From Acidobacterium sp. (lineage in GTDB: Bacteria > Acidobacteriota > Terriglobia > Terriglobales > Acidobacteriaceae), in NCBI GenBank assembly GCA_003131625.1, contig PKVY01000087.1, positions 9,637 through 62,818 of the forward strand: a stretch of DNA of 53,182 nt. The letters run 5' to 3'. The notes beneath the pieces were generated by a model that had not been told where the DNA came from, did not search any database, and worked only from the letters and a program-made list of their open reading frames with translations. Shown here piece by piece: positions 34,323 through 50,770 of this stretch. Positions within the stretch are counted from its first letter, which is position 1, and each line of letters begins with the position of its first letter. Made by a program: the position numbers and the translations under genes.

Positions 34323-34389
34323 TGAACGCGAACGCTTCTCTGTGCCCTGTGCCCTGATCCCTGATCACCGATCACTGACCACTGCTCCC
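34323..34389 (+). repeat. Heptad array A (7-bp period)
   Basis: Two degenerate units (TGAACGC, GAACGCT, 34323-34336), then seven in exact 7-bp register from 34341: TGTGCCC x2, TGATCCC, TGATCAC, CGATCAC, TGACCAC, TGCTCCC. It lies between convergent genes and overlaps the 3' end of the permease gene, supplying its stop codon. Confidence 0.85.
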
Positions 34390-35825
34390 AGTTCCAGCAG
34401 CTTCTTTTTCTTCCTCCGCCCAATCGCAAACACCACCACTCCCGCCCCCACCAGCGCCGCCGTCAACACCAGCACCTTCGCCACCGCCAGCGCCTTGTGC
34501 GGTTCCTCTTCCGCCGGAAAAACCGACAGCACAATAGCCGCAGCCGTTGTTACAAATCCCATCATCGCCACCGCAATCGCCACGGGACGCTTCCCCGGCA
34601 CCCGCATCACCTCCGGACCCGCAGGCTGGCTTTGCGCCCACGCCATCGCTGCGAACAGCGCCAGAAACGGCAGAAACGTCGTGATAATCGTCATACTCAC
34701 CATCACGTCGTACGCGCCGCGAACGCTGGTTCCCGCCTGACCCAGCGCCGCCATCAGCATCCCCGCCAGTCCGTACACCACAATCGCCACCCACGGCGTG
34801 TGGAACCGCGGATGCACGCGCGCAAACACTGGCGGCAAATAAAGATCAATGCCTGCTACAAATGGCAGCCGCGACGTCGACGACAGATACGCCGCCGCGC
34901 CCCCAATCGCCCCCAGCACCAGCAGCCCGGCCACCACCACTCCCAGCCACGGCAGGCCCAGCCGACCGCACAGCACCGCCGTACCCTGCATAAATCCATC
35001 CACGCCGGAAATCTGTCCCGCCGGCAGCGTCACCAGCAGCGCCGCCGTCCCCAGCACGTACGCCAGCGCCAGCGCCACTCCGCTCACCACGAGCGCCCGC
35101 GGAATCGTCTTCCGTGGCTCCTCGATCTCCTCCCCCATAAACGATCCCGTTTCGCACCCCGAAAACGCGCCAAAGATCGTCGCCCAGAAAATTGCGTTCC
35201 TCGCCGACAAATGCGGCGTCATCGCTCCCCACGAAAACCGGGTCGCCACCCCGAACCGCTCCGCAGCCACCGCCGCCAACGCTACCAGCACCAGCATCGA
35301 CAGCCACATCCCCGTCGATCCGACGTTGTTCAGCCACTTCCCGGCGTTCAGCCCCACCACATTCACCGCGGTGATTACGGCCAGCCACGTCACCGCGAAC
35401 GTCATAAAGTACCAGGGACTGCCGGCCAGCCGATGTCCTCGCTCCCCAGCGGCAAACAGCGCCGCCCCCGCGCCAAAATAAAGAATCGCCGCAAAGTACG
35501 GCAGGTTCGACATCCAGTACGTCCAGGCGCTCAAAAATCCCGCGAAATCCCCGAACGCCTCCCTCGCCCAGATGTACAGCCCGCCCTCCTGCGGATAGCG
35601 CGACGACAGCTCCATCACGCTCATCGCCAGCGGCACAAAAAATCCAACCAGCGCGAAAATCCACACCACCAACGCACTCGGCCCCGCCGCTGCTGCCGTC
35701 GCCACCCAGCGCACGCTCAGCGTCGTGGCAATGTAGAGCAGCGCCACATCCCGCAGCCGCAGCGTCCGCTTCAGCCCCTGCGCATGCCCGTGCCCCGCGG
35801 CATCCGGCACGATCAGCGGCACCAT
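34365..35825 (-). CDS. APC-superfamily amino acid permease
   Basis: 486 aa from ATG 35825; GTG codons at 35846/35840 overlapping the previous stop are alternatives. About 12 hydrophobic helices. The conserved APC start (LRLRDVALLYIATTLSVRW), SSRYPQEGGLYIWAREAFGD in helix 2-3, and GAFSGCETGSFMGEEIEEPR in the helix 6-7 region fit amino-acid or polyamine transporters (glutamate:GABA-like). Likely imports an amino acid by proton symport, inner membrane; substrate unassigned. It follows the FAD oxidoreductase by 7 bp, probably the same transcript. The last residues (AVVSDR) and stop codon are written by a heptad array. Confidence 0.9.
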   Translation of the reverse strand: MVPLIVPDAAGHGHAQGLKRTLRLRDVALLYIATTLSVRWVATAAAAGPSALVVWIFALVGFFVPLAMSVMELSSRYPQEGGLYIWAREAFGDFAGFLSAWTYWMSNLPYFAAILYFGAGAALFAAGERGHRLAGSPWYFMTFAVTWLAVITAVNVVGLNAGKWLNNVGSTGMWLSMLVLVALAAVAAERFGVATRFSWGAMTPHLSARNAIFWATIFGAFSGCETGSFMGEEIEEPRKTIPRALVVSGVALALAYVLGTAALLVTLPAGQISGVDGFMQGTAVLCGRLGLPWLGVVVAGLLVLGAIGGAAAYLSSTSRLPFVAGIDLYLPPVFARVHPRFHTPWVAIVVYGLAGMLMAALGQAGTSVRGAYDVMVSMTIITTFLPFLALFAAMAWAQSQPAGPEVMRVPGKRPVAIAVAMMGFVTTAAAIVLSVFPAEEEPHKALAVAKVLVLTAALVGAGVVVFAIGRRKKKKLLELGAVVSDR

Positions 35826-35832
35826 CGGGATC

Positions 35833-37374
35833 TCAGCCACGCGCACCGCTTTCCAGGTCCTTCAGCACCGCCATCGCCGCATTTCGCCCGTTTACCCCAA
35901 TCACGCTGCCGCCCGGATGCGTACACGCCCCGCACAGATACACGCCCTCCATCGGCGTGCGCGCCATCAGCCGTCGCGACCACATATAAGGCGGCAAACA
36001 TTCTCCCTGGAAAATATGTCCGCCCGTCAGCCCCACCTTCTCCTCAATGTCTGGAGGGCCCAGCACTTGCGCCTCCACGACAGCAGAATCGAGATTCGAA
36101 CAGAAACGCCCCAGCGATCCCAGCGCCAGCCGTCGCACTTCCTCGCGCCACGCGTCCCACGTCCCATTTGTAAACGTGTACGGCACATATTGCGCGAACA
36201 CGCTCATCGTGTGCATCCCCTCGGGCACCACGCTCCGATCGTGCACGCTCTGGAAGTACAGCTCGCACCACAGCGCCTCCGGCAGCTCGCCCCGCCTCGC
36301 CGCGGCAAATCCCGCTTTCCACTCCGCCTTCGTCAGCGGCGCGTTGATCTGTCCATAATGGTGCGGCTCATCCACTCCCGGTCGCGCAGTGAAATTCGGC
36401 AGCGACCGCAGCAGCACATTCAGCTTCACCGTGCAGCCTTCAATCGGAACGCCCTCCACCTTCGCCTTCCACTGCGCATCCGCCGCCCCGCCCAGCAGCC
36501 GCAGCGTCACCCGCGGATCCGCATTCGACACCACCACCCGCGCTGCAATCCGCTCCCCGCCTTCCAGCCGAACGCCCTCGCCAGGCAGAATCTCTGCGAC
36601 ACCGACACCCGAAGCCACCACCGCGCCCGCCTCGCGCGCCGCGTCGCAAAAATAAAACGACACCATCCCCATCCCGCCGCGAACATACCCCCACATCCCC
36701 GGCATCCCGCCCAGCCGACCCGACGCATGATGGAACCGGATCGACGCCGTCCCCGCATCGAACGGGCTCGCGTTCGTCCCGATCACTCCCTGCCCCAGAT
36801 ATGCAATTTGTAACCGCTCCTCTTGCAAATAGTGCTCGACAAACTCCGCCATCGACCACTCGTAGAGCAGCTTGTGTGCATCCTCATCGCCGTTCAACCG
36901 CGCGTCGATCTCTTCCGCCGTCGGCGCGTCGCCAATCCACGCATCCCCATCCCCCGCCGGACGCAGCTTGTCCCGCAGCCGCCCCAGCGTCGCGTTCATC
37001 GCCTTCCATCCCTCCACATCGCGCGGCGAGAAGCGCCGAATCTCCGCCTCACACCGCGCATCGTCATCCCACAGCTGCACGCTCGACCCATCGAGCAGCG
37101 GGACAAACAACCCATTCACCGCCGGAGTCCAGTGAAATCCCCGCGCCGGCAGCCCCAGTTCCTCCACCACCTTCGGGTGCAGCAATCCCGCCAGGTACGC
37201 GCACGGCGACATCCGCACCTCCGGATGCGTCTCCGGAAATGGTTCCTCGATGGTGCACGCTCCGCCCACGCGCTCGCGCGACTCCAGAACCAGCACGCGC
37301 TTCCCCGCCCGCGCCAGATACGCCGCGCACGCGAGGCCATTGTGTCCGGCGCCTACGATCACAACGTCCCACAT
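35833..37374 (-). CDS. FAD-dependent phytoene-desaturase-like oxidoreductase
   Basis: 513 aa from ATG 37374, placing the dinucleotide motif at the N-end (WDVVIVGAGHNGLACAAYLA and RVLVLE); a longer frame upstream is rejected. Another landmark is GGACTIEEPFPETHPEVRMS. The C-end LCGACTHPGGSVIGVNGRNA is typical of phytoene desaturase/carotenoid-isomerase-like flavoproteins. No neighbouring carotenoid genes were seen, so the substrate is open; many acidobacterial relatives are simply FAD oxidoreductases. A GGAG lies about 9 bp upstream of the start. Gene order with an amino-acid permease might hint at amine/amino-acid oxidation, which is only inference. Confidence 0.85.
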   Translation of the reverse strand: MWDVVIVGAGHNGLACAAYLARAGKRVLVLESRERVGGACTIEEPFPETHPEVRMSPCAYLAGLLHPKVVEELGLPARGFHWTPAVNGLFVPLLDGSSVQLWDDDARCEAEIRRFSPRDVEGWKAMNATLGRLRDKLRPAGDGDAWIGDAPTAEEIDARLNGDEDAHKLLYEWSMAEFVEHYLQEERLQIAYLGQGVIGTNASPFDAGTASIRFHHASGRLGGMPGMWGYVRGGMGMVSFYFCDAAREAGAVVASGVGVAEILPGEGVRLEGGERIAARVVVSNADPRVTLRLLGGAADAQWKAKVEGVPIEGCTVKLNVLLRSLPNFTARPGVDEPHHYGQINAPLTKAEWKAGFAAARRGELPEALWCELYFQSVHDRSVVPEGMHTMSVFAQYVPYTFTNGTWDAWREEVRRLALGSLGRFCSNLDSAVVEAQVLGPPDIEEKVGLTGGHIFQGECLPPYMWSRRLMARTPMEGVYLCGACTHPGGSVIGVNGRNAAMAVLKDLESGARG

Positions 37375-37576
37375 CCGCGCGGCGAGCTCCCGCACCGGCG
37401 CAGGCAATCCAACCTTTCCCAGAACCGCGGCTGTTGGCGACGTGCCCAGATCGATTTCCCCCGAGGGTTTCCTGCCAGTATCCACACCCAAACGCCAACG
37501 CGAAAGCAAATTACGCAAATCCGCGCCGTCACCGGTCCGCAACCGCACTTCGGTACAACGCCCGCCCCGCGCGTCC

Positions 37577-37582
37577 TATACT
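37577..37582 (+). promoter_or_regulatory. -10 box for the GH3 gene
   Basis: TATACT about 40 bp before the ATG; a ribosome site AGGAG lies at 37611-37615. Confidence 0.55.
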
Positions 37583-37594
37583 GTCGCTTCGTTC

Positions 37595-37608
37595 AGAGAA
37601 CGTTTTCT
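37595..37608. promoter_or_regulatory. LacI-type operator-like site before GH3
   Basis: AGAGAACGTTTTCT has central CG symmetry (AGAA-CG-TTTTCT) and shares AACGTTTT with the sites before the TonB receptor and GH1. It lies just after the -10 box, a position suited to repression. Confidence 0.45.
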
Positions 37609-37620
37609 TCAGGAGCTTTC

Positions 37621-40311
37621 ATGTCCCGCATTCGTACGTTCCTTGCACCGCTCGCAGTCCTCCTTGCCGTCCTCGCCGCACTCTCCTCGCCGGCCCAGCA
37701 AACCGCCGAAACCCAGCAGCCCTGGCTCAACACTTCCCTGCCCACCGATCAGCGCGTCGATGCCCTGCTCTCGCAAATGACCCTCGAAGAAAAAGTTCAG
37801 CAGATGCGCGACCACGCCCCTGCCATCCCGCGTCTCGGCGTTCCCAAATACGACTGGTGGAATGAAGGCCTGCACGGCGTCGCCTTCGCCGGCTACGCCA
37901 CAAATTTCCCCCAGGTCATCGGCATGGCCGCCACCTGGGATACGCAGCTGGTCCACACCATGGGCCAGACCATCTCCATCGAAGCCCGCGCCAAGTACGA
38001 CGAGGCAATTCGTAACAACCAGCATGAACAATTCTTCGGCCTCACCTTCTGGGCGCCCAACATCAACATCTTTCGCGATCCCCGCTGGGGACGCGGCCAG
38101 GAAACCTACGGCGAAGATCCTTTCCTCACCGGCCGCATGGCCGTCGCCTTCGTCACCGGCATGCAGGGCGACGACTCCCGCTACTTTCGCGTCGTCTCCA
38201 CACCGAAGCACTACGCCGTCCACTCCGGTCCCGAGCTCACCCGCCACCAGGCCAATGTCGACGTCTCTCCGCACGACCTCGAAGACACTTACCTCCCCGC
38301 CTTCCGCGCCGCCGTCACTGAAGCGCACGCGCAATCTGTCATGTGCGCCTACAACGCCATCGACGGAGCTCCCGCCTGCGCCAACACCATGCTGCTGCAG
38401 GATCATCTCCGCGACGCCTGGCACTTTGACGGCTACGTCGTCTCCGATTGCGCCGCAGCCGCTGACATTTTCACCGGCCATCACTACGCGCCCGACATGG
38501 CCCACGCTGCGGCCGATGCCGTGAAAGCCGGCACCGACCTCGAATGCGGCTACGGTGAAGGCCAGGCTTACCCCACCCTCGTCGACGCCGTCCACCAGGG
38601 ACTCATCACCGAAGCCGAAATCAACACCGCCCTCCACCGGCTCTTCCGCGCCCGCTTCAAACTCGGCATGTTCGACCCGCCTTCGAGCTACGCGTACGGC
38701 CAAATCCCCTTCAGCGAAGTCAATTCGCCCGAGCATCGCGCGCTCTCCCTCCGCGCCGCTCGCGAATCCATGGTCCTGCTCAAAAATCAGGACCACATCC
38801 TCCCGCTGAAATCCGAGACTTCCTCGATCGCCGTCATCGGACCCACTGCCGAGCTCATCCAGTCCCTGCAGGGCAACTACAACGGGCCGCCCCCGTCGCC
38901 CATCTACCCGCTCACCGGCATCGAGAAGCGCTTCTCGTCGTCGCACGTCCGCTACGCCCAGGGATCCAGCCTCGTCGCGGGTTACGCCATTCCCATCGAG
39001 CACACCGCGCTCCAACCCTCGTCCGGCTCCGGACGCGGCTCCGATTCCGGCCTCACCGGCGAATATTTCTCCACGCCCGACTTCACCGGCTCGCCAGTCC
39101 TCACCCGCACCGATCGCAACATCAACTTCAACTGGGATAAAGTCGTCCCCCTCCCCGGCCTCCAGCGCAACAACTACTCCGTTCGCTGGACCGGAACCTT
39201 CACCCCGCCCGCGCCCGGCAATTACCAGATCGGTGTCCGCGTCAACTACTGCTACGCCTGTGAAAACGCCGAAGGGTTTCGCCTCTATCTCGACGGCAAA
39301 CTCATCGTCGCCAGCTCCAGCGAGAAGCAGGCCGAGCGCGGCGCCGTGTTCGACGCTTCTGTGCACTTCGCTGATACAAATCCTCACCCGATTCGCCTTG
39401 AATACCTTCACGGAACCGGCTCGGCCGGCATCGACCTTACCTGGATTCCTCCCGCCGCGGTTCTCCGGGATGAGGCCGTCAAAGCCGCGCAACAATCCGA
39501 CATCGTCATCGCCTGTGTCGGCCTTTCGCCCAACCTTGAGGGCGAAGAAATGCCCGTTCACCTCGAGGGCTTCAGCGGCGGCGACCGCACTTCCATCTCG
39601 CTTCCGGCAGTTCAGGAAGATCTGCTCAAAGCTTTGGCCGCGACTGGCAAGCCCCTCATCGTCGTTCTTGAAAATGGCTCCGCCCTCGCCATCGACTGGG
39701 CCGCCCAGCACGCCAACGCCATCCTCGAAGCCTGGTATCCCGGCGAAGAAGGCGGCACCGCCATCGCCGAAGTCCTCGCCGGAGACACCAACCCCGCCGG
39801 CCGCTTGCCGCTCACCTTCTACGCATCGCTCGACGATCTCCCGCCCTTCGCCGACTACTCGATGCGCAACCGCACCTACCGTTACTTCACGGGCAAGCCG
39901 CTCTATAGCTTCGGCTACGGACTCAGCTACACCACCTTCACCTACAGCGATCTCAAAGTTCCGCAGCAGGTCCAGGCAGGCGATCCCGTCCAGGTCGAAG
40001 CCGAAGTCCGCAACACCGGCGGTGTCGCAGGCGACGAAGTCGTCGAGCTCTACCTTACGCAACCCAAAGGCTTCGAAACCCCGCAGCGCGAACTCGCCGC
40101 TTTCACGCGCATCCATCTCGACGCAGGCGCCCTCGCCCACATCGGCCTCACTCTCAATCCACGCTCCATCGGCCAGGTCGACGCACAAGGCAACCGCATC
40201 ATCCTCCCCGGCGACTACACCCTTTCCATCGGAGGCGCCCAACCCGGCGACTCCCCCTCCGGCCAAACCGCCACCTTCACCATCACCGGCCAAAAAGAGT
40301 TGCCGAAATGA
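37621..40311 (+). CDS. Exported GH3 glycosidase with inserted PA14 domain
   Basis: 896 aa, signal peptide (FLAPLAVLLAVLAALSSPAQ). The GH3 N-domain includes WWNEGLHGVAFAGYATNFPQ, NINIFRDPRWGRGQETYGED and KHYAVHSGPE. The catalytic nucleophile is Asp in VVSDCAAA (about 276). A PA14 carbohydrate-binding insert (about 475-615; LTGEYFSTPDFTGSPVL) and C-terminal GH3 and fibronectin-like domains follow. The family removes terminal beta-linked sugars (beta-glucose/xylose) from oligosaccharides; the RWGRGQETYGED region resembles beta-xylosidases. Likely periplasmic. The promoter has an operator-like site also seen at the TonB receptor and the next gene, GH1. Confidence 0.94.
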   Translation: MSRIRTFLAPLAVLLAVLAALSSPAQQTAETQQPWLNTSLPTDQRVDALLSQMTLEEKVQQMRDHAPAIPRLGVPKYDWWNEGLHGVAFAGYATNFPQVIGMAATWDTQLVHTMGQTISIEARAKYDEAIRNNQHEQFFGLTFWAPNINIFRDPRWGRGQETYGEDPFLTGRMAVAFVTGMQGDDSRYFRVVSTPKHYAVHSGPELTRHQANVDVSPHDLEDTYLPAFRAAVTEAHAQSVMCAYNAIDGAPACANTMLLQDHLRDAWHFDGYVVSDCAAAADIFTGHHYAPDMAHAAADAVKAGTDLECGYGEGQAYPTLVDAVHQGLITEAEINTALHRLFRARFKLGMFDPPSSYAYGQIPFSEVNSPEHRALSLRAARESMVLLKNQDHILPLKSETSSIAVIGPTAELIQSLQGNYNGPPPSPIYPLTGIEKRFSSSHVRYAQGSSLVAGYAIPIEHTALQPSSGSGRGSDSGLTGEYFSTPDFTGSPVLTRTDRNINFNWDKVVPLPGLQRNNYSVRWTGTFTPPAPGNYQIGVRVNYCYACENAEGFRLYLDGKLIVASSSEKQAERGAVFDASVHFADTNPHPIRLEYLHGTGSAGIDLTWIPPAAVLRDEAVKAAQQSDIVIACVGLSPNLEGEEMPVHLEGFSGGDRTSISLPAVQEDLLKALAATGKPLIVVLENGSALAIDWAAQHANAILEAWYPGEEGGTAIAEVLAGDTNPAGRLPLTFYASLDDLPPFADYSMRNRTYRYFTGKPLYSFGYGLSYTTFTYSDLKVPQQVQAGDPVQVEAEVRNTGGVAGDEVVELYLTQPKGFETPQRELAAFTRIHLDAGALAHIGLTLNPRSIGQVDAQGNRIILPGDYTLSIGGAQPGDSPSGQTATFTITGQKELPK

Positions 40312-40365
40312 AGCGGCGATTGGCGTCCGGTGCGCCCGGAACCCGCCCCTGAAGAAAACCCTTCC

Positions 40366-40381
40366 ACTCAAACGTTTTAGC
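40366..40381. promoter_or_regulatory. LacI-type operator-like site before GH1
   Basis: ACTCAAACGTTTTAGC, identical in 15 of 16 positions to the site upstream of the TonB receptor at 26887-26902. It lies 82 bp before the GH1 ATG. Confidence 0.5.
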
Positions 40382-40424
40382 TGCTAGGCTAAATGCCGAC
40401 CGATAAGGCGCCCCACTGCTTTTC

Positions 40425-40452
40425 TGAACGCTGAGCGCTGAACGCTGTCCCA
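40425..40452 (+). repeat. Heptad array B (7-bp period)
   Basis: TGAACGC, TGAGCGC, TGAACGC, TGTCCCA in exact 7-bp register, ending 10 bp before the GH1 start. Confidence 0.75.
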
Positions 40453-40462
40453 CGAGGCTCCC

Positions 40463-41914
40463 ATGAAACGCCGCTCCTTCCTGCAATCCGCTGCCGCTCT
40501 CGCCGCCGCGCCCGCCCTCCAGTCCCTCCTTAATTCCGCCGCCGCGCAAAACCTGCCCTCCCTCTCCGCCGCGCCCAACCGCTTCCCCAACGACTTCATC
40601 TGGGGCACGGCCACCGCCGCGTATCAGGTCGAAGGCGCCGTTCACGAAGACGGCCGCGGTCCCTCCGTCTGGGATACCTTCTCCCACACGCCTGGCAAAA
40701 CCTTCCAGGGCCAGACCGGCGATGTCGCCGACGACTTCTACCACCTCTACCCGCACGACATCGAGCTGATGCAGCGTCTCGGCACGAAGGGTTTCCGCTT
40801 CTCCATCGCATGGCCCCGCATCTTCCCCGACGGAACCGGCACGCCCAACCCCAAAGGCATCGACTTCTACAAGCGCCTCGTCGACGCCCTCCTGGCCGCC
40901 AACATCGAGCCCTTCTGCACCCTCTTCCACTGGGATCTACCCCAGGCACTCCAGGACAAAGGCGGCTGGACCAGCCGCGCCACCGCTCAGGCCTTCGCTG
41001 ACTACGCCCACTACACCGTCAGCCAGCTTTCCGACCGCATCAGCCACTGGATGACCATCAACGAATTCGGCTCCTTCATCGACGCCGGCTACGGCGAGGG
41101 CGTCTCCGCGCCCGGCCTCCGCCTGCCCCGCGCCCAGGTTATGCAGGCCCGTCACAACGCCGTCCTCGCTCATGGTCTCGCTGTCCAGGCCATTCGCGCC
41201 GCGGCCACTCGTCCCGTCGAAGTGGGACTTGCTCAGGACATGCCCGGAGCCATGCCCGCCATCGCCGACCCCGCCCACATCCGCGCCGCTGAAATCGCCT
41301 TCCGCGAAATCAACGCTCAGTACGCGACCGTCATCTTCGAGGGCCGCTACACTGACCGCTATCTGCGCACCCTCGGCGCGGATGCTCCGAAATTTACACC
41401 CGAAGAGCTGAAAACCATCTCCACCCCGCTGGACTTCGTCGGCATCAACATCTACACCACGCAGGAGGTCGTCCCCGCGGACACTCCCGACGGCTTCCTC
41501 ATGGTTCCGCGCCCCACCACCTACCCGCACGCAGCCTCCAACTGGCTCTTCGTCAATCCGCAGGCGCTCTACTGGACCCCGAAACTCGTCTCTCAACTCT
41601 GGGGCGTCAAAAAGATCTACATCACCGAGAACGGCTACTCCTCGGCCGACGTCCTGCGTCCCGACGGCCGCGTCCTCGACTCGGACCGCATCCTCTACCT
41701 TCGCAACTACCTGCTCCAGTTGCAGCGCGGCATCGCCGAAGGCAATCCCGTCGCCGGTTACTTCCTCTGGAGCCTCCTCGACAACTTCGAGTGGAGCTCC
41801 GGTTACAGCCTCCGCTTTGGCATCACCTACGTCGACTACGCAACCCAGAAACGCACGCCCAAGCTCTCCTACGACTTCTACCGCAACGTCATCGCCACCA
41901 ACTCCGTCGTGTAG
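40463..41914 (+). CDS. Exported GH1 beta-glucosidase-like enzyme
   Basis: 483 aa. A Tat-type leader (KRRSFLQSAAALAAAPALQS). GH1 barrel start DFIWGTATAAYQVEGAVHED; nucleophile Glu in ITENGYSSA (about 389). The acid/base motif reads TINEF (Glu about 201) rather than the usual T-F/L-N-E-P, so the Pro is missing; the Glu itself is present, so activity is still possible. The C-end LLDNFEWSSGYSLRFGITYV is typical. Retaining hydrolysis of beta-glycosides, probably periplasmic. Follows the exported GH3 gene on the same strand and shares an operator-like site with the TonB receptor. Confidence 0.93.
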   Translation: MKRRSFLQSAAALAAAPALQSLLNSAAAQNLPSLSAAPNRFPNDFIWGTATAAYQVEGAVHEDGRGPSVWDTFSHTPGKTFQGQTGDVADDFYHLYPHDIELMQRLGTKGFRFSIAWPRIFPDGTGTPNPKGIDFYKRLVDALLAANIEPFCTLFHWDLPQALQDKGGWTSRATAQAFADYAHYTVSQLSDRISHWMTINEFGSFIDAGYGEGVSAPGLRLPRAQVMQARHNAVLAHGLAVQAIRAAATRPVEVGLAQDMPGAMPAIADPAHIRAAEIAFREINAQYATVIFEGRYTDRYLRTLGADAPKFTPEELKTISTPLDFVGINIYTTQEVVPADTPDGFLMVPRPTTYPHAASNWLFVNPQALYWTPKLVSQLWGVKKIYITENGYSSADVLRPDGRVLDSDRILYLRNYLLQLQRGIAEGNPVAGYFLWSLLDNFEWSSGYSLRFGITYVDYATQKRTPKLSYDFYRNVIATNSVV

Positions 41915-41917
41915 TTC

Positions 41918-42002
41918 TGATCACTGTTCACTGCTCACTGATCACGGTTTTTCGGAACGCTGTGCCCTGTACCCTGTTCCCTGCACCCTGTACCCTGACT
42001 AC
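41918..42002 (+). repeat. Heptad array C (7-bp period), whole intergenic gap
   Basis: First block TGATCAC, TGTTCAC, TGCTCAC, TGATCAC (41918-41945). After an 8-base spacer, a second block runs from 41954: GGAACGC, TGTGCCC, TGTACCC, TGTTCCC, TGCACCC, TGTACCC, TGACTAC, in register up to the base before the GTG of the polymerase gene. Nearly the whole gap is this array. Confidence 0.9.
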
Positions 42003-43100: not shown

Positions 43101-43114
43101 CTGCAGCAGATCAG

Positions 43115-43142
43115 TGCCCGGTGCTCGGCGCCCGGTGCCCGG
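43115..43142 (+). repeat. Heptad array D (7-bp period)
   Basis: TGCCCGG, TGCTCGG, CGCCCGG, TGCCCGG in exact register, starting 15 bp after the holB stop. Confidence 0.8.
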
Positions 43143-43862: not shown

Positions 43863-43896
43863 AAAACGCGCGAAGCGCGTCCGCTCCCCCGCACCC

Positions 43897-43957
43897 AACG
43901 CTGAGCGCTTTTTTCTAAACCCTAAACTCTAAACTCCAAACTCCTCCCTGCTCCCTG
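43897..43957 (+). repeat. Heptad array E (7-bp period)
   Basis: AACGCTG, AGCGCTT, then from 43916 in register TAAACCC, TAAACTC, TAAACTC, CAAACTC, CTCCCTG, CTCCCTG. It overlaps the Sua5-type gene and provides its last codons and stop. Confidence 0.85.
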
Positions 43958-45038
43958 CCCTCAACAGCCGATCCCGCACCGCCGCCCCTATCCCCACCGG
44001 CTCCGGCAACGGACACACAATCGCCGTCACCCCCGCCGCATCCAGCCACCGCAGTCCCGCGTACAGCTTCTGCGCCAGTTCCTCCGGCTTCTCCCACGAT
44101 CCCCAGGGGTAGACATGCACCGTGTCGTAGCCCATCGTGAACCCGCGCGGGTCAAACGGTTTCTTCCGCATTGCCATCAGCGCTGCCTTAAAACCCTCCG
44201 GCGCCATCACGCCCACCATTTCGCCAGCCTCCTCCAGGCGATTCACCTCATCGATCAACGCAACGTGCAGGCCCGGCGGGAATCCTTCCACCAGCACCAG
44301 CCGCGCTCGCGGCGCATAATGCCGCACACCCATCCCCGGCGCCGGAGCCGCCGCCTCACTCTCCTCGAGTTCCGTCCGAAACTTCACATCGCCCCGGCAC
44401 ACCGAGCGAAGCTGCTCCAGCGTGATCATCCCCGGCCGATAAATCACGCACTCCCCCTCCCGCACATCCACCACCGTCGACTCCACCCCGTGCGTTGTCT
44501 CTCCGCCATCCAGAATCGCGTCGATCCGGCCGTCCAGATCCTCGGCTACGTGGGCTGCGGTCGTTGGGCTGATCCGCCCAAACCGGTTCGCGCTCGGCGC
44601 CGCCACCGGAACCCCCGCGGCCACCAGCAGCGCATGCGCTACAGGATGCGCCGGCATCCGCGCTCCCACCTTCTCCAGCCCCGCCGTCACCGACTCCGGC
44701 ACTCCGGGATGCTTCGGCAGCAGCAGCGTCAGCGGTCCCGGCCAGAACGCATCCATCAGCCGCCGCGCATCCTCACTCACTTCCGCCGCCACCTGCTCCA
44801 GCATCGCTGCCTCGCCGATATGCACAATCAGCGGATCCCAGCGCGGCCGCTCCTTCGCCCCAAAAATCCTCCCCACCGCCGCCGCATCCAGCGCATTCGC
44901 CCCCAGCCCGTAGACCGTCTCTGTCGGAAACGCCACCATCCCGCCCGCCCGCAGAATCTCCGCCGCGCGCGCAATCGCGGCTCGCGAAGCCCTGCTCTCC
45001 GGATTGCCGGCTTCCACCGTGAGCCTCAGCGTCTGCAC
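43929..45038 (-). CDS. tsaC: Sua5-type L-threonylcarbamoyladenylate synthase
   Basis: 369 aa, cytoplasmic. Makes threonylcarbamoyl-AMP from threonine, bicarbonate and ATP, the first step of t6A37 tRNA modification. The YrdC domain (about 15-205) contains GGMVAFPTETVYGLGANALD, KERPRWDPLIVHIGE, DAFWPGPLTLLLPKH, PSANRFGRISPTTAAHV and HGVESTVVD. The additional Sua5 domain (about 245-360) marks the long form; MGVRHYAPRARLVLVEG joins the domains. The C-end EEFGV and stop codon come from the heptad array. Divergent from the CYTH gene. Confidence 0.93.
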   Translation of the reverse strand: MQTLRLTVEAGNPESRASRAAIARAAEILRAGGMVAFPTETVYGLGANALDAAAVGRIFGAKERPRWDPLIVHIGEAAMLEQVAAEVSEDARRLMDAFWPGPLTLLLPKHPGVPESVTAGLEKVGARMPAHPVAHALLVAAGVPVAAPSANRFGRISPTTAAHVAEDLDGRIDAILDGGETTHGVESTVVDVREGECVIYRPGMITLEQLRSVCRGDVKFRTELEESEAAAPAPGMGVRHYAPRARLVLVEGFPPGLHVALIDEVNRLEEAGEMVGVMAPEGFKAALMAMRKKPFDPRGFTMGYDTVHVYPWGSWEKPEELAQKLYAGLRWLDAAGVTAIVCPLPEPVGIGAAVRDRLLRAGSREEFGV

Positions 45039-45090
45039 TCTCTCCCTCTCCCGATGCCTATCCTAACCGTCGCCGGACCTTGGCCCGTCT

Positions 45091-45209
45091 TTCGCTAACC
45101 CGTCTTCGGTTAGCCGCCTTTTGCTAACCCCTTCATCCCTGACCAGCCACCTGCCACCCGCGACCGGCCCTCACCTGCGCCCTGTACCCTGCACCCTGTA
45201 CCCTGCTTT
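45091..45209 (+). repeat. Heptad array F (7-bp period)
   Basis: A 14-bp period in TTCGCTAACCCGTC / TTCGGTTAGCCGCC (45091-45118), then units in 7-bp register from 45140 (TGACCAG, CCACCTG, CCACCCG, CGACCGG, CCCTCAC, CTGCGCC, CTGTACC, CTGCACC, CTGTACC, CTGCTTT) ending one base before the CYTH ATG. It covers most of the 172-bp divergent gap. Confidence 0.8.
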
Positions 45210-45210
45210 T

Positions 45211-45789
45211 ATGCCCCTGGAAATCGAAGTCAAATTCCCGGTCCCCGATCCCGAGGCACTCGTGCGCCGCCTCCGCGCCGCCGGCTTCCACGAGGCAACC
45301 CCCCGCACCTTCGAGCGCAATATCCTCTACGACACGCCCGACCGCCGCCTCCGCGCGCAGACGGCCATCCTCCGTATCCGCAAATACGGCGACCGCTGGG
45401 TCGTCACCCACAAGTGCCTCCCGCAAAACAATGACCCCGCCGCCCGCCACAAGCTGCGCGAAGAAACCGAAACCGAGGTGCGGGACGGCGAAGCCCTCGG
45501 CCACATCTTCACCCAGCTCGGCTTTGAGCCCGCCTTCATCTACGAGAAGTGGCGCACCGAGTTCGCTGACGCGACCGGCCACTGCGTCCTCGACGAAACC
45601 CCCATCGGCGTCTACGCCGAGCTCGAAGGCCCCGCGGACTGGATCGACCAGACCGGCCGCAAACTCGGCGTCAACCCCGGCCAGTTCCTCACCCTGAGCT
45701 ACGGCCGCCTCTTCGATCAGTGGCGTCAGTCGACCGGCAGCTCCGCCCAAAACCTCACCTTCGACGAAATCCCGTCACTCTCCCTCTAA
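45211..45789 (+). CDS. CYTH-domain protein (class IV adenylate cyclase-like)
   Basis: 192 aa from ATG 45211 where the CYTH motif begins (MPLEIEVKFPV, the ExExK signature). Other family blocks: FERNILYDTPDRRLRAQTAI, ILRIRKYGDRWVVTHK, RHKLREETETEV, EKWRTEF and DETPIGVYAELEG with charged beta-strand ends. CYTH enzymes form a tunnel that binds triphosphates with divalent metals; members include class IV adenylate cyclases and thiamine- or inorganic-triphosphatases, so the exact reaction is not decided here. The preceding array leaves no room for a ribosome site. Confidence 0.88.
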   Translation: MPLEIEVKFPVPDPEALVRRLRAAGFHEATPRTFERNILYDTPDRRLRAQTAILRIRKYGDRWVVTHKCLPQNNDPAARHKLREETETEVRDGEALGHIFTQLGFEPAFIYEKWRTEFADATGHCVLDETPIGVYAELEGPADWIDQTGRKLGVNPGQFLTLSYGRLFDQWRQSTGSSAQNLTFDEIPSLSL

Positions 45790-46084
45790 TTCTTCCCCTC
45801 GCCGCGCCGATATCCACCTTGAACGTCGCAGTGCGGGCGTAATCCGCTCGACCCGTCCGCCTGCCCGTATTTTTCCAGCGGAGGCATCCGTTGCTCTCGT
45901 CTCTCTACTCTCCCCGCCGCCGGCGTCAGGCTGCGCTATGGCGCGCCTTCCGACAACCCCTCCTGTGCATTCAACCCACCGGTCCCCGCCCGATGAACCA
46001 GGAACCGCTGCTACTGGAAACCTTCCCTGAGCCCGCCACCGCGCAATCAAAATCCACCCTCCCCCTGCGACTGTGGAGACATCG

Positions 46085-47353
46085 ATGAACTTCTTCGCCC
46101 GCATTCCCTTCGGCTATAAATTGCGCCTGATCATGGGACTCCTGATGGCCTCGACCGCCCTCGCCGCCCTCACCGAGGTGTTTCGCCTCAACCGCGCCGA
46201 AACCATCTCCCTCTGGGCTGTGGCGATGGTCGGAGGCACCGTTGCCCTGATCGGGCTCGAACTGACCTCCCGCTGTCTCATCGCCAGCCTCCGCGAGCTC
46301 GGTGAGCGCGCCCGCTCTATCACCGAAGGCAATCTCACCGGCCAGACCGTCATCTGCGGCGCTCACGATGAGGTCGGCGATCTCGGCCACTCCATGGACC
46401 GCATGCAGGAGAGCCTGCAGGGCGTGATTGCCGCCATCATGGAGGCTTCCGCCACGCTCCACAACAACTGCGAAGATCTGGCCCGCGCTGGCGCCCAGGC
46501 CTGGAACCGCACCAGCCAGCAAAGCGCCCAGACCCACCAGGCCGCCAGCGCCATGCAGGAAATGTCTATTTCCATTGCCGAAGTCTCCGGCCATGCCCAA
46601 ACTGCCTCCGACCAGGCCCGCGAGGCCGCCACCGTCGCCCGCGAAGGCGGTGCCATCGTCGAGGAAATGCTCTCCGGCATGAACACCATCTCCGACTCGG
46701 TTTCCCAAACCGCTGCAACCGTCGAGCGCCTCGGCAAAGAATCCGAGCAGATCATCCGCATCGTCAACGTCATCGAAGAAATCGCGCAGAAAACCAACCT
46801 GCTCGCCCTCAACGCCGCCATCGAAGCTGCCCGCGCCGGCGAACAGGGCCGCGGCTTTGCGGTTGTCGCCGGGGAAGTCCGCCGCCTCGCCGAATCCACC
46901 CGCAACGCCACCAGTGAAATCGCGCAGATGATCGAGAGCATCACCGCCAACACCCAGGCAGCCGTCCAGGCCATGGGAGCCGGCACAGAACGCGTGAACC
47001 ATGGAATGGAGATCACCGCCCGCGCCGGCGCTTCTCTCAAGCGCATCATGGCCGCCACCGACCAGGTCGAGTCCATGATCGCCCAGATCGCCACCGCCTC
47101 CACCGAGCAATCCGTCGCCGCTCAGGAATTCAGCCAGAACCTCGAAGTCATCAACCAGCTCGGCGAAGAAGGCAACGCCGCCAGCCCTGTCACCAAAGGC
47201 CTCGTCCAGTCCGTGGGAGCCGGCGCCGACCGCCTCCAGGAATCCGTTGGCCACTTCCGCCTCGGCGATGCCCGCTCCATCTCAGGCCCCACGCCGCGCC
47301 GTGACCCGCCGCCCGCAGTCGCTCCCCACCCCGCCCCCACCTTCGGCGACTAG
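46085..47353 (+). CDS. Methyl-accepting chemotaxis protein without a sensor domain
   Basis: 422 aa from ATG 46085 (GGAG upstream). Two close membrane helices (about 13-31 and 43-60) leave almost no periplasmic loop, so there is no typical ligand-binding domain. HAMP-like region about 60-110. The signalling tip shows the near-invariant [20 protein letters not shown] followed by [20 protein letters not shown]. Proline-rich C-tail. Such receptors control CheA kinase and probably form part of a chemosensory cluster elsewhere; no che genes are in the window. The 295-bp gap before it holds nothing that I can name. Confidence 0.92.
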
Positions 47354-47385
47354 CAGCAGTCGGTGATGCGCGACCTGTTCGCACG

Positions 47386-47413
47386 GTTCACGGATCACTG
47401 TTCACTGTTCTCC
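47386..47413 (+). repeat. Heptad array G (7-bp period)
   Basis: GTTCACG, GATCACT, GTTCACT, GTTCTCC in register between the convergent MCP and MscS genes; the MscS stop (47402-47404) lies inside it. Confidence 0.75.
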
Positions 47414-48406
47414 GGTAAACGGATTCACCTCCGTCGACTTCGCCGCCGTCGGATCCGCCTTCGCCCCCTCATGCTCCGCCCCCGCTCCTGCGAGCCGGTT
47501 TTCCTGTGCTCTGTGCTCTGTGCTCTGTGCCCTCGTGTAAATCCGATTCGGATCCCCCGGCAGAATCCCTTTCTCCTCCAGCGCCAGCGCGATCCGCCGC
47601 TGCGTCTCTCGCTGTGCCGCCCACTGCTGGTTCGCCTTCGTCTTCAGCTGCACCGGATAGATCACCTGCGATCCCCTGATCGAATCCACGCCCAGCAGCA
47701 CCGGATCGGCCAGATAGACATCCTTGTACGCAGGATCGTTCCTCACGCTCATGGCCACATCCTTCAGCAGCGCCATCACCTCGTCCGGATTCGCGGAAAA
47801 GTCCACCGACACATTGATCGTCGCCACGGAGAAGTCCCGCGTCAGGTTCGCTACCGTCGTGATCTGCGAATTGGGCACGATGTAGAGCGTCCCATCCGCG
47901 TCCCGCACCTGCGTCCTGCGCAGCGTCATCGTCTCCACCGTGCCGCTCACCCCCGCTACCCGCACTACATCGCCCACGTTGAACTGGTCGTCGATCAGGA
48001 TCAGGAATCCGTTGAAGCAGTCCCTTACGATGTTCTGCGCCGCCAGCCCAATCGCCACCCCCGCCACGCCTGCGCTTGTCAGCAGCGGCCCCAGATTGAA
48101 GCCCAACACCGGCAGCACCTGCAGCACCGCCAGAAACACGATCACCCCGACGCCCGTCGCGCGAATCACCGACAGCAGGGTCCGTACCTGCGCCGTATGC
48201 CCCACCGAACTCGGCTGCCGCTCCGTGATTCTCAGGATGTGATCCGTCACCAGCCGCAGCACCCACATCAGCACCCAGCCGAGCAGCGCGACCAAAATCA
48301 GCTTGGGCAGCTTCTCATGCAGGAACTCCTGCAGATCCATGACATACTTGTCCCCCAGCCCCTCAAAAAACTCCCGCCGCCCCAGCATCAGCATCTCAAT
48401 CCACAT
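47402..48406 (-). CDS. MscS-family mechanosensitive channel
   Basis: 334 aa, ATG preceded by GAGGGA. An inner-membrane channel that opens on membrane tension. Helices: LPKLILVALLGWVLMWVL, ATGVGVIVFLAVLQVLPVLG and the pore helix GVAGVAIGLAAQNIVRDCFN. The MscS beta-domain follows (FNVGDVVRVAGVSGTVETMT, GTLYIVPNSQITTVANLTRD), then the alpha/beta C-domain ending near LPGDPNRIYT. About 45 extra residues (TRAQSTEHRAQ onward) are low-complexity; they include a heptad array translated in frame. The stop codon is in another heptad array. Convergent with the chemoreceptor gene. Confidence 0.93.
   Translation of the reverse strand: MWIEMLMLGRREFFEGLGDKYVMDLQEFLHEKLPKLILVALLGWVLMWVLRLVTDHILRITERQPSSVGHTAQVRTLLSVIRATGVGVIVFLAVLQVLPVLGFNLGPLLTSAGVAGVAIGLAAQNIVRDCFNGFLILIDDQFNVGDVVRVAGVSGTVETMTLRRTQVRDADGTLYIVPNSQITTVANLTRDFSVATINVSVDFSANPDEVMALLKDVAMSVRNDPAYKDVYLADPVLLGVDSIRGSQVIYPVQLKTKANQQWAAQRETQRRIALALEEKGILPGDPNRIYTRAQSTEHRAQENRLAGAGAEHEGAKADPTAAKSTEVNPFTGEQ
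47505..47532 (+). repeat. Heptad array H inside the MscS coding tail
   Basis: TGTGCTC, TGTGCTC, TGTGCTC, TGTGCCC in exact register (four units, 28 bp), translated on the minus strand as part of ...TRAQSTEHRAQ. A low-complexity tail follows. Confidence 0.85.
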
Positions 48407-48463
48407 GGTTTTCCCTCAGCATAACGTCACAGTGTGTTTACCTTTCTCCGCGCCCAACGGGCT

Positions 48464-48469
48464 TATAAT
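48464..48469 (+). promoter_or_regulatory. -10 box for the small secreted gene
   Basis: TATAAT about 61 bp before the ATG at 48530; AGGAGG at 48517-48522 is a strong ribosome site. Confidence 0.55.
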
Positions 48470-48529
48470 TCTGCCACCACCGAAAGCCCCGGTGCGTTCC
48501 TTCCCAACCTGTTTGTAGGAGGCGCTTTC

Positions 48530-48928
48530 ATGATCAACGTTGCCCAGTTGACGCGGAACAGCCGTCTGGTTCTCATCGCCCTGCTCGCCGCGTTCGCGCT
48601 CCCCGCCGCGCACGCCCAGCAGCAAACCGTGCCAGCGGTACCCACAACGCCCCAGCATAACGGTGTCGACGCCTCTGGTTTTGGCGATCCCAGCCCCCGC
48701 GACCCCGATCAGGCGCGCATGATGAAGGACATGAGCCGCGAGCGCAATGCCATTCGCCAGAAACAGATTGTCGATGATACCGCTCAGCTCCTCGACCTGG
48801 CCAAACAGCTCAAGGACGCCGTCGACAAGAGCAGCAAAGATCAGCTTTCGCTTTCCGTCGTCAACACCGCCACCGAAATCGAGAAGCTCGCCAAAGTCGT
48901 CAAAGAAAAAATGCGCGACGGCCAATAA
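48530..48928 (+). CDS. Small secreted helical protein of unknown function
   Basis: 132 aa from ATG 48530 with a strong AGGAGG upstream; a longer frame adds 32 residues without support. Signal peptide (LVLIALLAAFALPAAHAQQQ). After a proline-rich linker, a C-terminal helix-rich stretch (RERNAIRQKQIVDDTAQLLD and LAKQLKDAVDKSSKDQLSLS) looks like a coiled coil or a helical hairpin. Own promoter. No family recognised; similar small exported helical proteins are common in Acidobacteria. Function unknown. Confidence 0.75.
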   Translation: MINVAQLTRNSRLVLIALLAAFALPAAHAQQQTVPAVPTTPQHNGVDASGFGDPSPRDPDQARMMKDMSRERNAIRQKQIVDDTAQLLDLAKQLKDAVDKSSKDQLSLSVVNTATEIEKLAKVVKEKMRDGQ

Positions 48929-49048
48929 CAGCGCTTAGCGTTCAGGAACTCCCGTCACCGGCTGCTTCGCTCGCCCTTCGCTGGAAGTTGGCTAGCTTCC
49001 CGCGTTCAGAGTTTTTCTCGCATCGCCCACAGCATTTTGCCGGCCCGA

Positions 49049-49351
49049 TCAGCCAGTAACGTCGCCAATTTTCGCCGGATCTCCGAAGCCGAGTTCGTGC
49101 GCAATCACAAGTTGCGTCTGAATCTCCATGGCCGAGCCACGCGCCATTCCCAGAAAGCTTCGATATTCGCCCCTCGAGGATCGGCCATAGCCCTCGGCAA
49201 TGTTGCTGGCGACTGAGACTCCCGCTCGGCGCAGCTGACTAGTCAGCCCGTAAACCTCCTCTCTCGGAAAGTCTCTTGTCAGTCTGTAAAGCGCAACGGA
49301 CATCTCGATCGCACACTGCCAGACATCAAGTTCACGATACGACTTCGCCAT
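49049..49351 (-). pseudogene. S23-type four-helix bundle protein, C-terminal frameshift
   Basis: As written, 100 aa: AKSYRELDVWQCAIEMSVAL, YRLTRDFPREEVYGLTSQLR, RAGVSVASNIAEGYGRSSRG, then a shortened tail ending GDVTG. These are the marks of the S23/four-helix bundle family linked to 23S rRNA intervening sequences and to many mobile or unknown contexts. In the other frame after the stop lies ADRAGKMLWAMREKL-stop, ending at 49006, the usual end of the family. Removing one base in the AA at 49058-49059 would read ...GDVLADRAGKMLWAM and restore a normal length of about 115 aa. So the last helix is probably lost by a 1-base insertion. Confidence 0.78.
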
Positions 49352-49362
49352 GGCGACCCCCT

Positions 49363-49390
49363 GAACCCCGAACGCCGAACGCTGTCCTCA
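49363..49390 (+). repeat. Heptad array I (7-bp period)
   Basis: GAACCCC, GAACGCC, GAACGCT, GTCCTCA in register just upstream of the S23 start. Confidence 0.75.
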
Positions 49391-49404
49391 GATCGAAGGG
49401 CGTC

Positions 49405-49454
49405 CTGCCGAACATCGATCTCAGGATATGACGTCGCCCGTCATGGCAACTCCG
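49405..49454. pseudogene. Degraded copy of the S23 gene's 5' end
   Basis: 49405-49438 matches 49316-49349 at about 26 of 34 bases, covering the first codons of the S23 gene and its ATG context, then continues into array J as the original does into array I. The copy has a stop early in the frame and no remaining gene body. Confidence 0.6.
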
Positions 49455-49489
49455 GAACGCCGAACGCCGAGCGCCGAACGCTGTCTTCA
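49455..49489 (+). repeat. Heptad array J (7-bp period)
   Basis: GAACGCC, GAACGCC, GAGCGCC, GAACGCT, GTCTTCA in register; the last three bases supply the stop of the phosphatase gene. Confidence 0.8.
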
Positions 49490-50689
49490 GACGCGCCGGA
49501 TCAACAGCAGCGTCTGATCGTCCCCCTGCTTCCCAAACGCCCGCGCGCTCCCCAGAATCGCCCCCGCCAGTTCCGGCAGCGCCGCGTGCGCGTCCGCGGC
49601 AATCGTCCTCTCTACGCGCTCGATTCCAAATTCCTGCCCCTGCCGGTCGCAGACTTCCAGCACCCCATCCGTCGCCACTACCAGCAGGTCCCCCGGCCCC
49701 AGCGCGATCGCCGCCCCCGTAAATCCTTCCACCGGCAGCAGGCCCAGCGGAAACTGCTCCTCCTCCATGCGCCGCCAATCCTGCCGCTGCGGACTCCAGT
49801 GCAGGATCGGAGGGCTCGCCGCCATCGCATACCATGCTCCGCCATCCGCGTTCAGCCGGAACGCCGTCAGCGTCGCATACATCTGCGGCTCCTTCACATC
49901 CGGCAGCACCTGGTTCAGCTTCTCCAGCAGAAGCGGCAGCGTCCCGCTCGGATGCCCCGTCGCCGCATCCAGCAGCGCCGTCCGCGCCGCAATCTTCAGC
50001 ATCCCCATCAAAATTCCTGCCGGCAGCCCATGCCCCGCAATATCCGCCACGTACGCCACCATGTCGCCATTCGGCAGCAGCAGCGCGTCCACCAGGTCGC
50101 CGCCCACCTTGTCGCTGGGCTCCGAAATTCCATAGACCTCGAAGCGCTCCGTGCGCAGCGAGACCGGCGGCACCAGCGTCTTCTGGATCCCGTGCGCCAG
50201 CTCCAGCTCACTGCGTATCCGGTACGATTCCTTCCCTTCCGCCCGAATGAAGCCAATGAAAAAGAAGTACGAGGCCATGACCACCAGCACGATGCCCACT
50301 GCTGCAGACTGCACTCCCGCCTTCGTCGCCACCTCATGCAGGCCGAACGTGCGCATCATCCAGCGCGCCAGCCACGTCATCAGCGTCCCGTTGAAGAATT
50401 GCAGAACAATCAGGCCCACGATCAGGCCCGCGATGAATTTACGCGGCGATTTGTAAATCACCAGGATCCAAAGCGCGCAATTCGCCCCGCTGAGGATCGC
50501 CAGAACTATGACCACCGCGTAAGGAGTCGTTCCCAGACTCATCAGGTCATAGAAAAACCCAAAGACAGAAAACAGCAGCGACGCCGCCACCAGCAGCAGC
50601 CACAGCCGTTTCCACGGTATCGCGCGCATTCGATCCCAGCGTGAAAAACGCCAGGCTCTTGATATCAGAACTTGTTCACCCTTCCCCAT
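49487..50689 (-). CDS. Membrane-bound SpoIIE/RsbU-type serine phosphatase
   Basis: 400 aa. N-terminal helices (about 28-50, 58-80, 85-105, 125-150; WLLLVAASLLFSVFGFFYDL, FIAGLIVGLIVLQFF, AVGIVLVVMASYFFFIGFI). The cytoplasmic PP2C-type domain (about 165-400) has the RsbU start ELELAHGIQKTLVPPVS, VGGDLVDALLLPNGDMVAYV, ADIAGHGLPAGILMGMLK, LLVVATDGVLEV and GDDQTLLLIRR, with metal-binding Asp in GGD, ADIAGHG, ATDG and GDD. Likely dephosphorylates an anti-sigma-factor antagonist in a partner-switching pathway. The start could be at 50629. Stop codon comes from array J. Confidence 0.9.
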   Translation of the reverse strand: MGKGEQVLISRAWRFSRWDRMRAIPWKRLWLLLVAASLLFSVFGFFYDLMSLGTTPYAVVIVLAILSGANCALWILVIYKSPRKFIAGLIVGLIVLQFFNGTLMTWLARWMMRTFGLHEVATKAGVQSAAVGIVLVVMASYFFFIGFIRAEGKESYRIRSELELAHGIQKTLVPPVSLRTERFEVYGISEPSDKVGGDLVDALLLPNGDMVAYVADIAGHGLPAGILMGMLKIAARTALLDAATGHPSGTLPLLLEKLNQVLPDVKEPQMYATLTAFRLNADGGAWYAMAASPPILHWSPQRQDWRRMEEEQFPLGLLPVEGFTGAAIALGPGDLLVVATDGVLEVCDRQGQEFGIERVERTIAADAHAALPELAGAILGSARAFGKQGDDQTLLLIRRV

Positions 50690-50721
50690 AGGCTGCCAAC
50701 ATATCAGCGATTCGCCCCCAC

Positions 50722-50770
50722 CACCAGCGACCCACCACCGGCTACCGGCTACAGGCTACCGGCTCCCATC
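50722..50770 (+). repeat. Heptad array K (7-bp period)
   Basis: CACCAGC, GACCCAC, CACCGGC, TACCGGC, TACAGGC, TACCGGC, TCCCATC in exact register in the divergent gap between the phosphatase and E1 genes. Confidence 0.8.

Follow-up and report, generated by a model that had tools for sequence, protein, structure and literature searches.

Degenerate heptamer arrays in an Acidobacteriaceae genome mostly share a CTG..C unit and follow the local GC skew

Filamentous cyanobacteria carry tandem heptamers known as short tandemly repeated repetitive (STRR) sequences. A survey of 2007, reportedly by Mrazek, is cited as having found that a period of seven is favored across bacteria, and as proposing polymerase slippage as the cause, the step depending on how much DNA the active site of the enzyme accommodates. 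The heptamer excess in bacteria has been noted together with the lack of detailed literature on it, in a report where the cause of this preference is left open (PMC4692102). Here, we describe tandem arrays of seven-base units in a window of 53,182 nucleotides, i.e., the whole stretch of DNA analyzed (positions 9637-62818 of contig C148), which belongs to a metagenome-assembled genome (MAG) from a group of uncultured soil bacteria of the family Acidobacteriaceae (G000, 5.39 Mb in 148 contigs). The E1-dehydrogenase of the window is closest to nine records, at 81-86% identity, from MAGs labeled Acidobacteriaceae, Acidobacterium, or Acidobacteria, followed by one MAG at 75% and by Silvibacterium at 73-76%. 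The strand and direction of these arrays make the claim of a copying step testable, in a genus that has several families of units and 12 genomes available for comparison.

The arrays of Xanthomonas, made of GGGAATC and more generally of GGGANTN, number 186 and 183 in two genomes; they are mostly intergenic and most have four units (Rehm et al. 2015, PMC4692102). Their mean distance is 28 nt to the next 5′ open reading frame (ORF) and 160 nt to the one downstream, and the report describes them without a preference for the leading or lagging strand, and with convergent inverted pairs (PMC4692102). The same source presents GGGGA(T/C)T arrays in Nostoc and cites three heptamers for Calothrix. Direct repeats of TAACTGA are found in Beggiatoaceae, cyanobacteria, and Bacteroidetes; those of Beggiatoaceae lie mostly right before start codons, and the indels between Cyanothece strains are mostly 7-nt steps (MacGregor 2015, PMC4679880). 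Microcystis has mixed heptamers, and 8 of its 24 mapped TAACTGA sets are flanked by stop codons and point the same way along the chromosome, so that a hint of chromosome orientation is already published (PMC4679880). An initial annotation of our window, made from its letters alone, knew of no described equivalent beyond cyanobacteria. This does not hold, since heptamer arrays have been published for Xanthomonas, Nostoc, Beggiatoaceae, and Bacteroidetes (PMC4692102, PMC4679880). As for Acidobacteria, none of the titles listed in a search of the open-access literature dealt with heptamer arrays.

We scored matches at each lag, counting as arrays those with a score of at least 11, and used 40 order-1 resamples as a control. 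The window has 12 arrays at lag 7, compared with a mean of 0.05 and a maximum of 1 in the resamples. Among the other lags, lag 6 and the harmonic lag 14 have 4 arrays each and lag 12 has 1, whereas lags 4, 5, 8-11, and 13 have none. The arrays listed in the initial annotation are real, since period-7 repeats occur at all 12 places. In 1,081,497 bases of the same genome (1.08 of 5.39 Mb), we found 62 arrays at lag 7, 3 at lag 6, 1 at each of lags 11, 12, and 13, and none at lags 4, 5, 8, 9, and 10; these contigs were chosen for carrying arrays, so the density there is not the genome average. Four relatives of the genus (362,239 bases, in regions chosen by array position when their skew was still unseen) have 49 arrays at lag 7 and 0 or 1 at each of lags 4-6 and 8-13. 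The specificity of lag 7 is thus established here: the predicted excess is present in this genome and in the four relatives, and lag 7 alone stands out.

A pattern of four consecutive CTGNNCN units is present in all 12 genomes of the genus (one genome per species), with 3 matches (G005) to 201 (G000), and the reversed control pattern has 0 to 3 matches in the same genomes. In the family, the pattern is present in 141 of 300 genomes and 34 of 79 genera; the cultured relatives Silvibacterium bohemicum S15 and Terracidiphilus gabretensis S55 are among those with matches. Some family genomes (e.g., G136, G240, and G268) have more matches to the control than to CTGNNCN, so other heptamers may exist there. 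The arrays are preferentially intergenic: 41 lag-7 clusters are found in the 141 kb called intergenic vs 7 in the 573 kb called coding. Genes were called by a simple codon-usage script and not by a standard caller; their stops are firm and their starts uncertain. The initial annotation had given 3 to 10 units per array; those of the window have 3 to about 6, and longer arrays exist outside it (e.g., 179 bp at C148:1-179).

Counts of units and orientations were made on 149 arrays from our genome and the four relatives. The majority (117) fit CTG..C to at least 75% in the best of 14 registers and are called CTG-phased hereafter; 90 of them lie within called spacers. These 117 arrays contain 642 units, with C at position 1 in 636, T at position 2 in 586, G at position 3 in 590, and C at position 6 in 561; the arrays having been chosen by this fit, the figures are partly circular and describe the unit without testing it. 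Positions 4, 5, and 7 vary in a coupled way: A at position 5 goes with C or G at position 7 in 209 of 216 units, G with T or C in 94 of 100, and T with A or C in 93 of 108. Among the units of the remaining 32 arrays are GGCTACC, CTAAACY, and GCTCCCA. Species have their own dialects. CTGTACC and CTGCACC lead in G000 (129/393 units), CTGCTCC in G002 (19/96), and CTGAGCT in G009 (13/48), the samples of the relatives being small. That most arrays fit CTG..C is established. The earlier statement that the unit varies and the period never does is therefore half right: the period is fixed across the genome and the genus, and the sequence is constrained, as 117 of the 149 arrays fit CTG..C.

The direction of the CTG strand is constant over long stretches, and flips within contigs C27, C45, C67, and C117. 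This strand is the one of negative GC skew, i.e., the locally C-rich one, in 110 of the 117 CTG-phased arrays (67/72 in our genome and 43/45 in the relatives), and in 99 of the 102 where the absolute skew is at least 0.1. The lock holds in each of the four classes of arrays defined by the base at position 7 (63/66, 23/24, 13/16, and 11/11). In the 32 other arrays, the C-richer strand agrees with the skew in 25, disagrees in 6, and ties in 1 (by eye). Array density varies along with the skew, from 2 arrays in 32 bins with an absolute skew below 0.03 to 20 arrays in 15 bins at 0.25 or above (Spearman 0.42, 211 bins of 5 kb). Both the lock to skew and the tracking of skew by density are established. 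The lock is weaker in Terracidiphilus, where it is seen at 13 of the 17 loci listed (strands compared by eye). We rejected gene direction as the cause of the orientation, since the arrays of C65, and those along most of the initial 100 kb of C67, oppose the strand that carries the majority of genes, whereas along most of C112 they are sense to it. The initial annotation had noticed that the C-rich strand was mostly the plus strand irrespective of genes, and indeed orientation tracks a property of the DNA strand, not the main gene direction.

The arrays also have a polarity relative to genes. In 41 of the 90 spacer arrays, a gene boundary lies no more than 6 bp from the 3′ end of the CTG strand; this is true of the 5′ end in 6, where random placement expects 7.2. 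Of these arrays, 74 are nearer to the 3′ side of the spacer and 16 to the 5′ side, a polarity found in our genome (48/55) and in the relatives (26/35), and also when the flanking genes are larger (49/59 at 150 aa or more, 28/36 at 250 aa). Among boundaries at most 10 bp away, the 3′ end meets 29 stops and 17 starts, and the 5′ end 6 stops and no starts. In our genome, arrays near a stop (15 bp or less) run antisense to the gene in 16 cases and sense in 3, and those equally near a start run sense in 11 and antisense in none. The 5′ flank has a residual 7-periodicity (0.317 at lag 7 vs 0.251-0.282 at lags 4-6 and 8-11) and the 3′ flank has the periodicity of coding DNA. We found no age gradient within arrays, since lag-7 identity is 0.82-0.89 by fifths. 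There is a mild excess of T-runs in the flanks, with TTTT within 10 bp on the 5′ side in 12 of 117 arrays and on the 3′ side in 4 of 117 (2.0% in control 10-mers). Polarity is established for the CTG-phased arrays. As a separate observation, inverted arrays of the CTAAACY type at C117:5065-5416 flank a hairpin and a T-run, in an arrangement that resembles a bidirectional terminator (by eye).

Orthologous sites are re-filled with other units. Of the 12 genus genomes, 7 have an array in the 135 bp that precede Sua5, always on the same strand, with units of the types CTGYACC, GGCTACC, CTGCACG, GCTTCCA, CTCCCTG, CTGTYCC, and CTATCCC. At the gene divergent from Sua5, four aligned species keep the same register, with CTG 8 bases before the ATG (by eye). 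A site behind a hairpin (C23:95068) has CTGTGCT in G003 and CTAATCC in our genome, and at C148:51550 the array of G002 (CTGAACG units) and that of our genome (CTGYACC) share one 3′ edge (both by eye). We queried 207 spacers, 28 of which had syntenic flanks, and dropped 4 for a length difference above 300 or a spacer below 15 bp in our genome. In the 24 retained, arrays are present in both genomes in 6, in the relative only in 2, in our genome only in 4, and in neither in 12 (p = 0.03). Spacer length is independent of array length (r = -0.05, 12 informative pairs), which, in this small sample, fits overwriting better than simple insertion. The low-skew genomes G005, G006, and G007 have no arrays at MscS or Sua5. 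Genome G001 has two MscS arrays identical to ours and none above threshold at Sua5; its Sua5 spacers are long and consist of a very degenerate AGCGNNN period of seven that stays under the array threshold (by eye). The re-filling of orthologous sites with other units is established.

The skew itself is a property of the DNA, since the skews at fourfold sites of plus- and minus-strand genes agree (r = 0.88, 86 bins). It reaches 0.82 at such sites in 10-kb bins. At fourfold sites, the C-rich strand gains C at the expense of the two purines, with a change from 0.42 to 0.73 for C, 0.39 to 0.14 for G, 0.10 to 0.05 for A, and 0.10 to 0.08 for T. On contigs C18, C23, C27, C67, and C112 it forms waves over 50-150 kb, unlike a two-replichore pattern. 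On several contigs, it declines slowly and then leaps up sharply. Of the 9 sharp steps in all the DNA examined, 8 go up (6 in our genome and 1 in each of G009 and G196) and 1, in our genome, goes down. Such sawtooth skew is known from multi-origin genomes; the slow rise on C45 counts against reading the pattern as a sawtooth. At the sharpest step, C67:222,903, the skew climbs from -0.25 to +0.25 in the space of 1 kb. This step is close to MazG, where a gene that lacks a Pfam match ends, and there was no origin protein among the 8 proteins tested around it. The gene dnaA sits on C129, and three dnaA regions scored against a consensus DnaA box gave no match. At C129:15291-15747 of our genome, the match to the DnaA domain is split over two frames, probably through a frameshift or a misassembly. 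According to the abstract of a survey, a skew of about 2.5% is typical (PMC8941118), and next to this value a wave-like skew of 0.2-0.3 linked to arrays is itself unusual.

We propose, with a probability of about 0.5, that the arrays are degenerate tandem heptamers that arise and are renewed by a replication-coupled process, in which DNA is copied again seven bases at a time, for the most part on a single strand. The locally C-rich strand would be either the product of this copying or its template, which would keep the CTG strand on the C-rich strand over tens of kilobases, and skew would mark the direction of replication. An array would grow 3′-ward along the CTG strand, by slippage or re-copying, until a selected gene, met at a sense start or an antisense stop, halts it. 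Point mutations would diversify the units and further rounds of copying would homogenize them, so that species may differ in their units at one site, sometimes in the same register. The arrays would have no selected function of their own. The initial annotation had suggested a replication or repair process. The fixed period and the strand-linked orientation are as such a process predicts, since orientation by DNA strand and not by gene direction is expected of it; the part of the argument that invoked a lack of sequence conservation is not supported. Taken together, these results favor the copying of DNA over the regulation of genes as the origin of the arrays, the cause being unproven.

Several observations weigh against this reading. 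The sense strand of rplB is G-rich in the 11 matched genus genomes out of 11, that of dnaA is C-rich in 11 out of 11, and that of rpoB is mixed (9 genomes). Because these leading-strand markers conflict, skew is unproven as a report of fork direction and the CTG strand is assignable to neither the leading nor the lagging strand. The relation of strand bias to origin and terminus, also raised by the initial annotation, could be approached by GC skew alone: orientation tracks it, and the direct markers of replication disagree. In the closed Terracidiphilus genome G220, which has weak skew in 20 samples, the association of array strand with half-chromosome has p = 0.21 at the midpoint and p = 0.01 only at a post hoc cut; neither the sequence of G220 nor that of G239, also closed, has dnaA as its first gene. 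A 100-kb domain of G239 has a skew near -0.15 and lacks any array of score 14, and G009 has strong skew at MscS yet no array. Two CTG-phased arrays oppose the local skew, one upstream of Sua5 in G010 and one downstream of Sua5 in G000. The polarity of the non-CTG arrays is not significant (17/27), the lack of correlation between spacer and array lengths comes from 12 pairs only, and no strain-level variation was seen, two arrays of G001 being identical to ours. Finally, plain slippage alone leaves unexplained both the sharing of CTG..C among unrelated loci and the polarity.

The main rival of DNA copying is selection at the level of RNA, or more broadly of RNA or DNA signals: the arrays would be C-rich unstructured leaders, or protein-binding sites with 7-nt spacing as proposed for the TAACTGA repeats of Beggiatoaceae. 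The 17 starts and 29 stops next to 3′ ends, and their bias toward sense starts and antisense stops, speak for it. The fixed distance from the ATG in four species and the persistence of sites despite the change of units go in the same direction. Polarity could result from such a selective filter at the RNA level, because sense starts and antisense stops share one side of the spacer, so that position alone cannot separate RNA-level selection from DNA copying. Selected signals fit poorly with an orientation that tracks the DNA strand rather than the prevailing direction of genes, with arrays next to both ends of genes, in all three kinds of spacer (tandem, divergent, and convergent) and even in a reading frame, with the wholesale replacement of units between species, and with the empty MscS and Sua5 sites of the low-skew G005, G006, and G007. 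We regard this explanation as rather unlikely.

It is more improbable still that the arrays are a by-product of composition, C-rich strands merely supplying more C-rich seeds. Density tracks skew, as this would have it, and the net C excess of the CTG strand exceeds 0.25 in 77 of the 117 arrays. However, the lock also holds where there is little or no C excess: it is 18/20 for an excess of at most 0.1, 17/20 between 0.1 and 0.25, and 75/77 above 0.25. When single copies of the units are counted in the DNA outside arrays, with coding DNA included, two of six units favor the C-rich strand over the other, CTGTACC (27/10) and CTGCACC (143/37). The other four are unbiased or biased the opposite way (CTGAACG 46/90, CTGATCA 36/47, CTGTGCT 21/20, CTGTTCC 45/42). 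Composition alone is weakened by the low-C arrays and by these four units, the two C-rich units with a bias notwithstanding, and explains neither why 7 is the only period nor the polarity.

Quadruplex or i-motif elements akin to the Xanthomonas GGGAATC arrays are very improbable: the CTGYACC class does put GGG every seven bases on the opposite strand, and 43 of the 117 arrays match the G3 pattern, but the 74 that do not are locked alike (68/74), and we reject quadruplexes as a general cause for this reason. The dispersal of the arrays by a mobile or inserted element, of the miniature inverted-repeat transposable element (MITE), repetitive extragenic palindrome (REP), or CRISPR-like kind, which would account for the many copies and for the inverted, head-to-head pairs formed by part of the arrays on the closed Terracidiphilus contigs G239:C1 and G220:C1 (at least 10 pairs, 28-127 bp apart with a limit of 250 bp, CTG strands outward in 10 of the 10 listed), is hardly credible when units differ by site, sites are re-filled with other units, and the flanks of the 117 arrays have no conserved core, either terminal or palindromic, which removes MITE and REP membership.

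Returning to replication-coupled re-copying in seven-base steps, one may wonder if a single process of focal, strand-specific DNA synthesis leaves both the arrays and the extreme skew as its marks. We find this doubtful. If true, the sawtooth would reflect several fixed starts per chromosome of an asymmetric, error-prone synthesis that writes C and re-copies seven-base steps.

Within the window, a domain of strong negative skew on the plus strand (30000-53182, -0.21 to -0.29 per 5 kb) contains all 12 arrays, which have their CTG or C-rich strand on the plus strand. Left of 30 kb, the skew is +0.06 to -0.09 per 5 kb, which fits the lack of arrays left of 34 kb in the initial annotation: the first array of score 11 or more begins at 34,340. 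Two further rows of period 7 come from Tandem Repeats Finder; they are weak, with 2.1 and 2.8 copies (at 28915 and 43554), and only the former lies in that part. The first array (34340-34384, CTGTGCC/CTGATCA) runs 20 bp into the 3′ end of a minus-strand amino acid permease gene. The second (40424-40447, CTGAACG/CTGAGCG, without net C excess) lies 15 bp before the GH1 start, where G002 has a leader of about equal length and no array (by eye). Two arrays follow GH1, one directly past its stop (41917-41945, CTGATCA/CTGTTCA) and one at 41960-41997 (CTGTACC/CTGCACC), whose 3′ edge is shared by CTGAACG units in G002. A GTGCCCG array at 43114-43142 precedes a CTAAACY array (43915-43958) that enters the 3′ end of the minus-strand Sua5/YrdC gene. 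Another CTGTACC/CTGCACC array (45174-45205) is near the start codon of a plus-strand gene. A period-15 repeat, CCCGTCTTTCGCTAA, at 45084-45130 has an inverted GTTAGC/GCTAAC core and adjoins the Sua5 array.

The MscS locus has an array of the CTGTTCA type at the MscS stop (47382-47410, identical in G001) and a CTGTGCT array inside the MscS-like reading frame (47504-47533), which encodes RAQSTEHRAQ in the repetitive C-terminal tail of the channel protein; the MscS genes of G003, G004, and G002 contain other heptamers. Of two CCGAACG arrays, at 49359-49382 and 49455-49481, the second ends 5 bp from the stop of a minus-strand gene with a SpoIIE domain. The last array (50737-50767, GGCTACC) is not CTG-phased and lies in a spacer where palsa_139 carries a GGCTACM/GGCTCCC array. 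The arrays had been described as intergenic, which is true of most, the exceptions being the one inside the MscS-like frame and those that extend into the permease and Sua5/YrdC genes from the 3′ side.

How do these arrays compare with the known ones? As in bacterial intergenic heptameric simple sequence repeat arrays, they have a tandem 7-base period without comparable excess at neighboring periods, and lie mostly in spacers near the end of an ORF (PMC4692102). They resemble those of Xanthomonas in having heptamers with fixed and variable positions, mostly in spacers, and in the inverted pairs seen in Terracidiphilus. The proximity of the Xanthomonas arrays to the 5′ ORF would even be the same polarity as that of the C-rich 3′ end at genes here, if 5′ refers to the G-rich strand. 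In contrast, Xanthomonas has one family of units, unrelated to CTGNNCN; the G3 pattern that GGGANTN implies is found in 43 of 117 arrays here; and the arrays described without strand preference there differ from ours, which follow the local skew in 110 of 117 cases (skew, not fork direction, was scored). The heptamers of Nostoc and the STRR, the latter being specific heptamer sequences of heterocystous cyanobacteria, are likewise short tandem repeats in spacers, with units that differ from ours in Nostoc and probably in the STRR, and with no skew lock in the accounts considered. The TAACTGA repeats have one fixed unit, whereas several families occur here, with 3′ ends near stops as well as starts, and not that unit, forward, just before start codons. 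Heptamer arrays as a class are thus already published, and what is new here is the lock to skew, the co-variation of density and skew, the several families of units, and the re-filling of sites.

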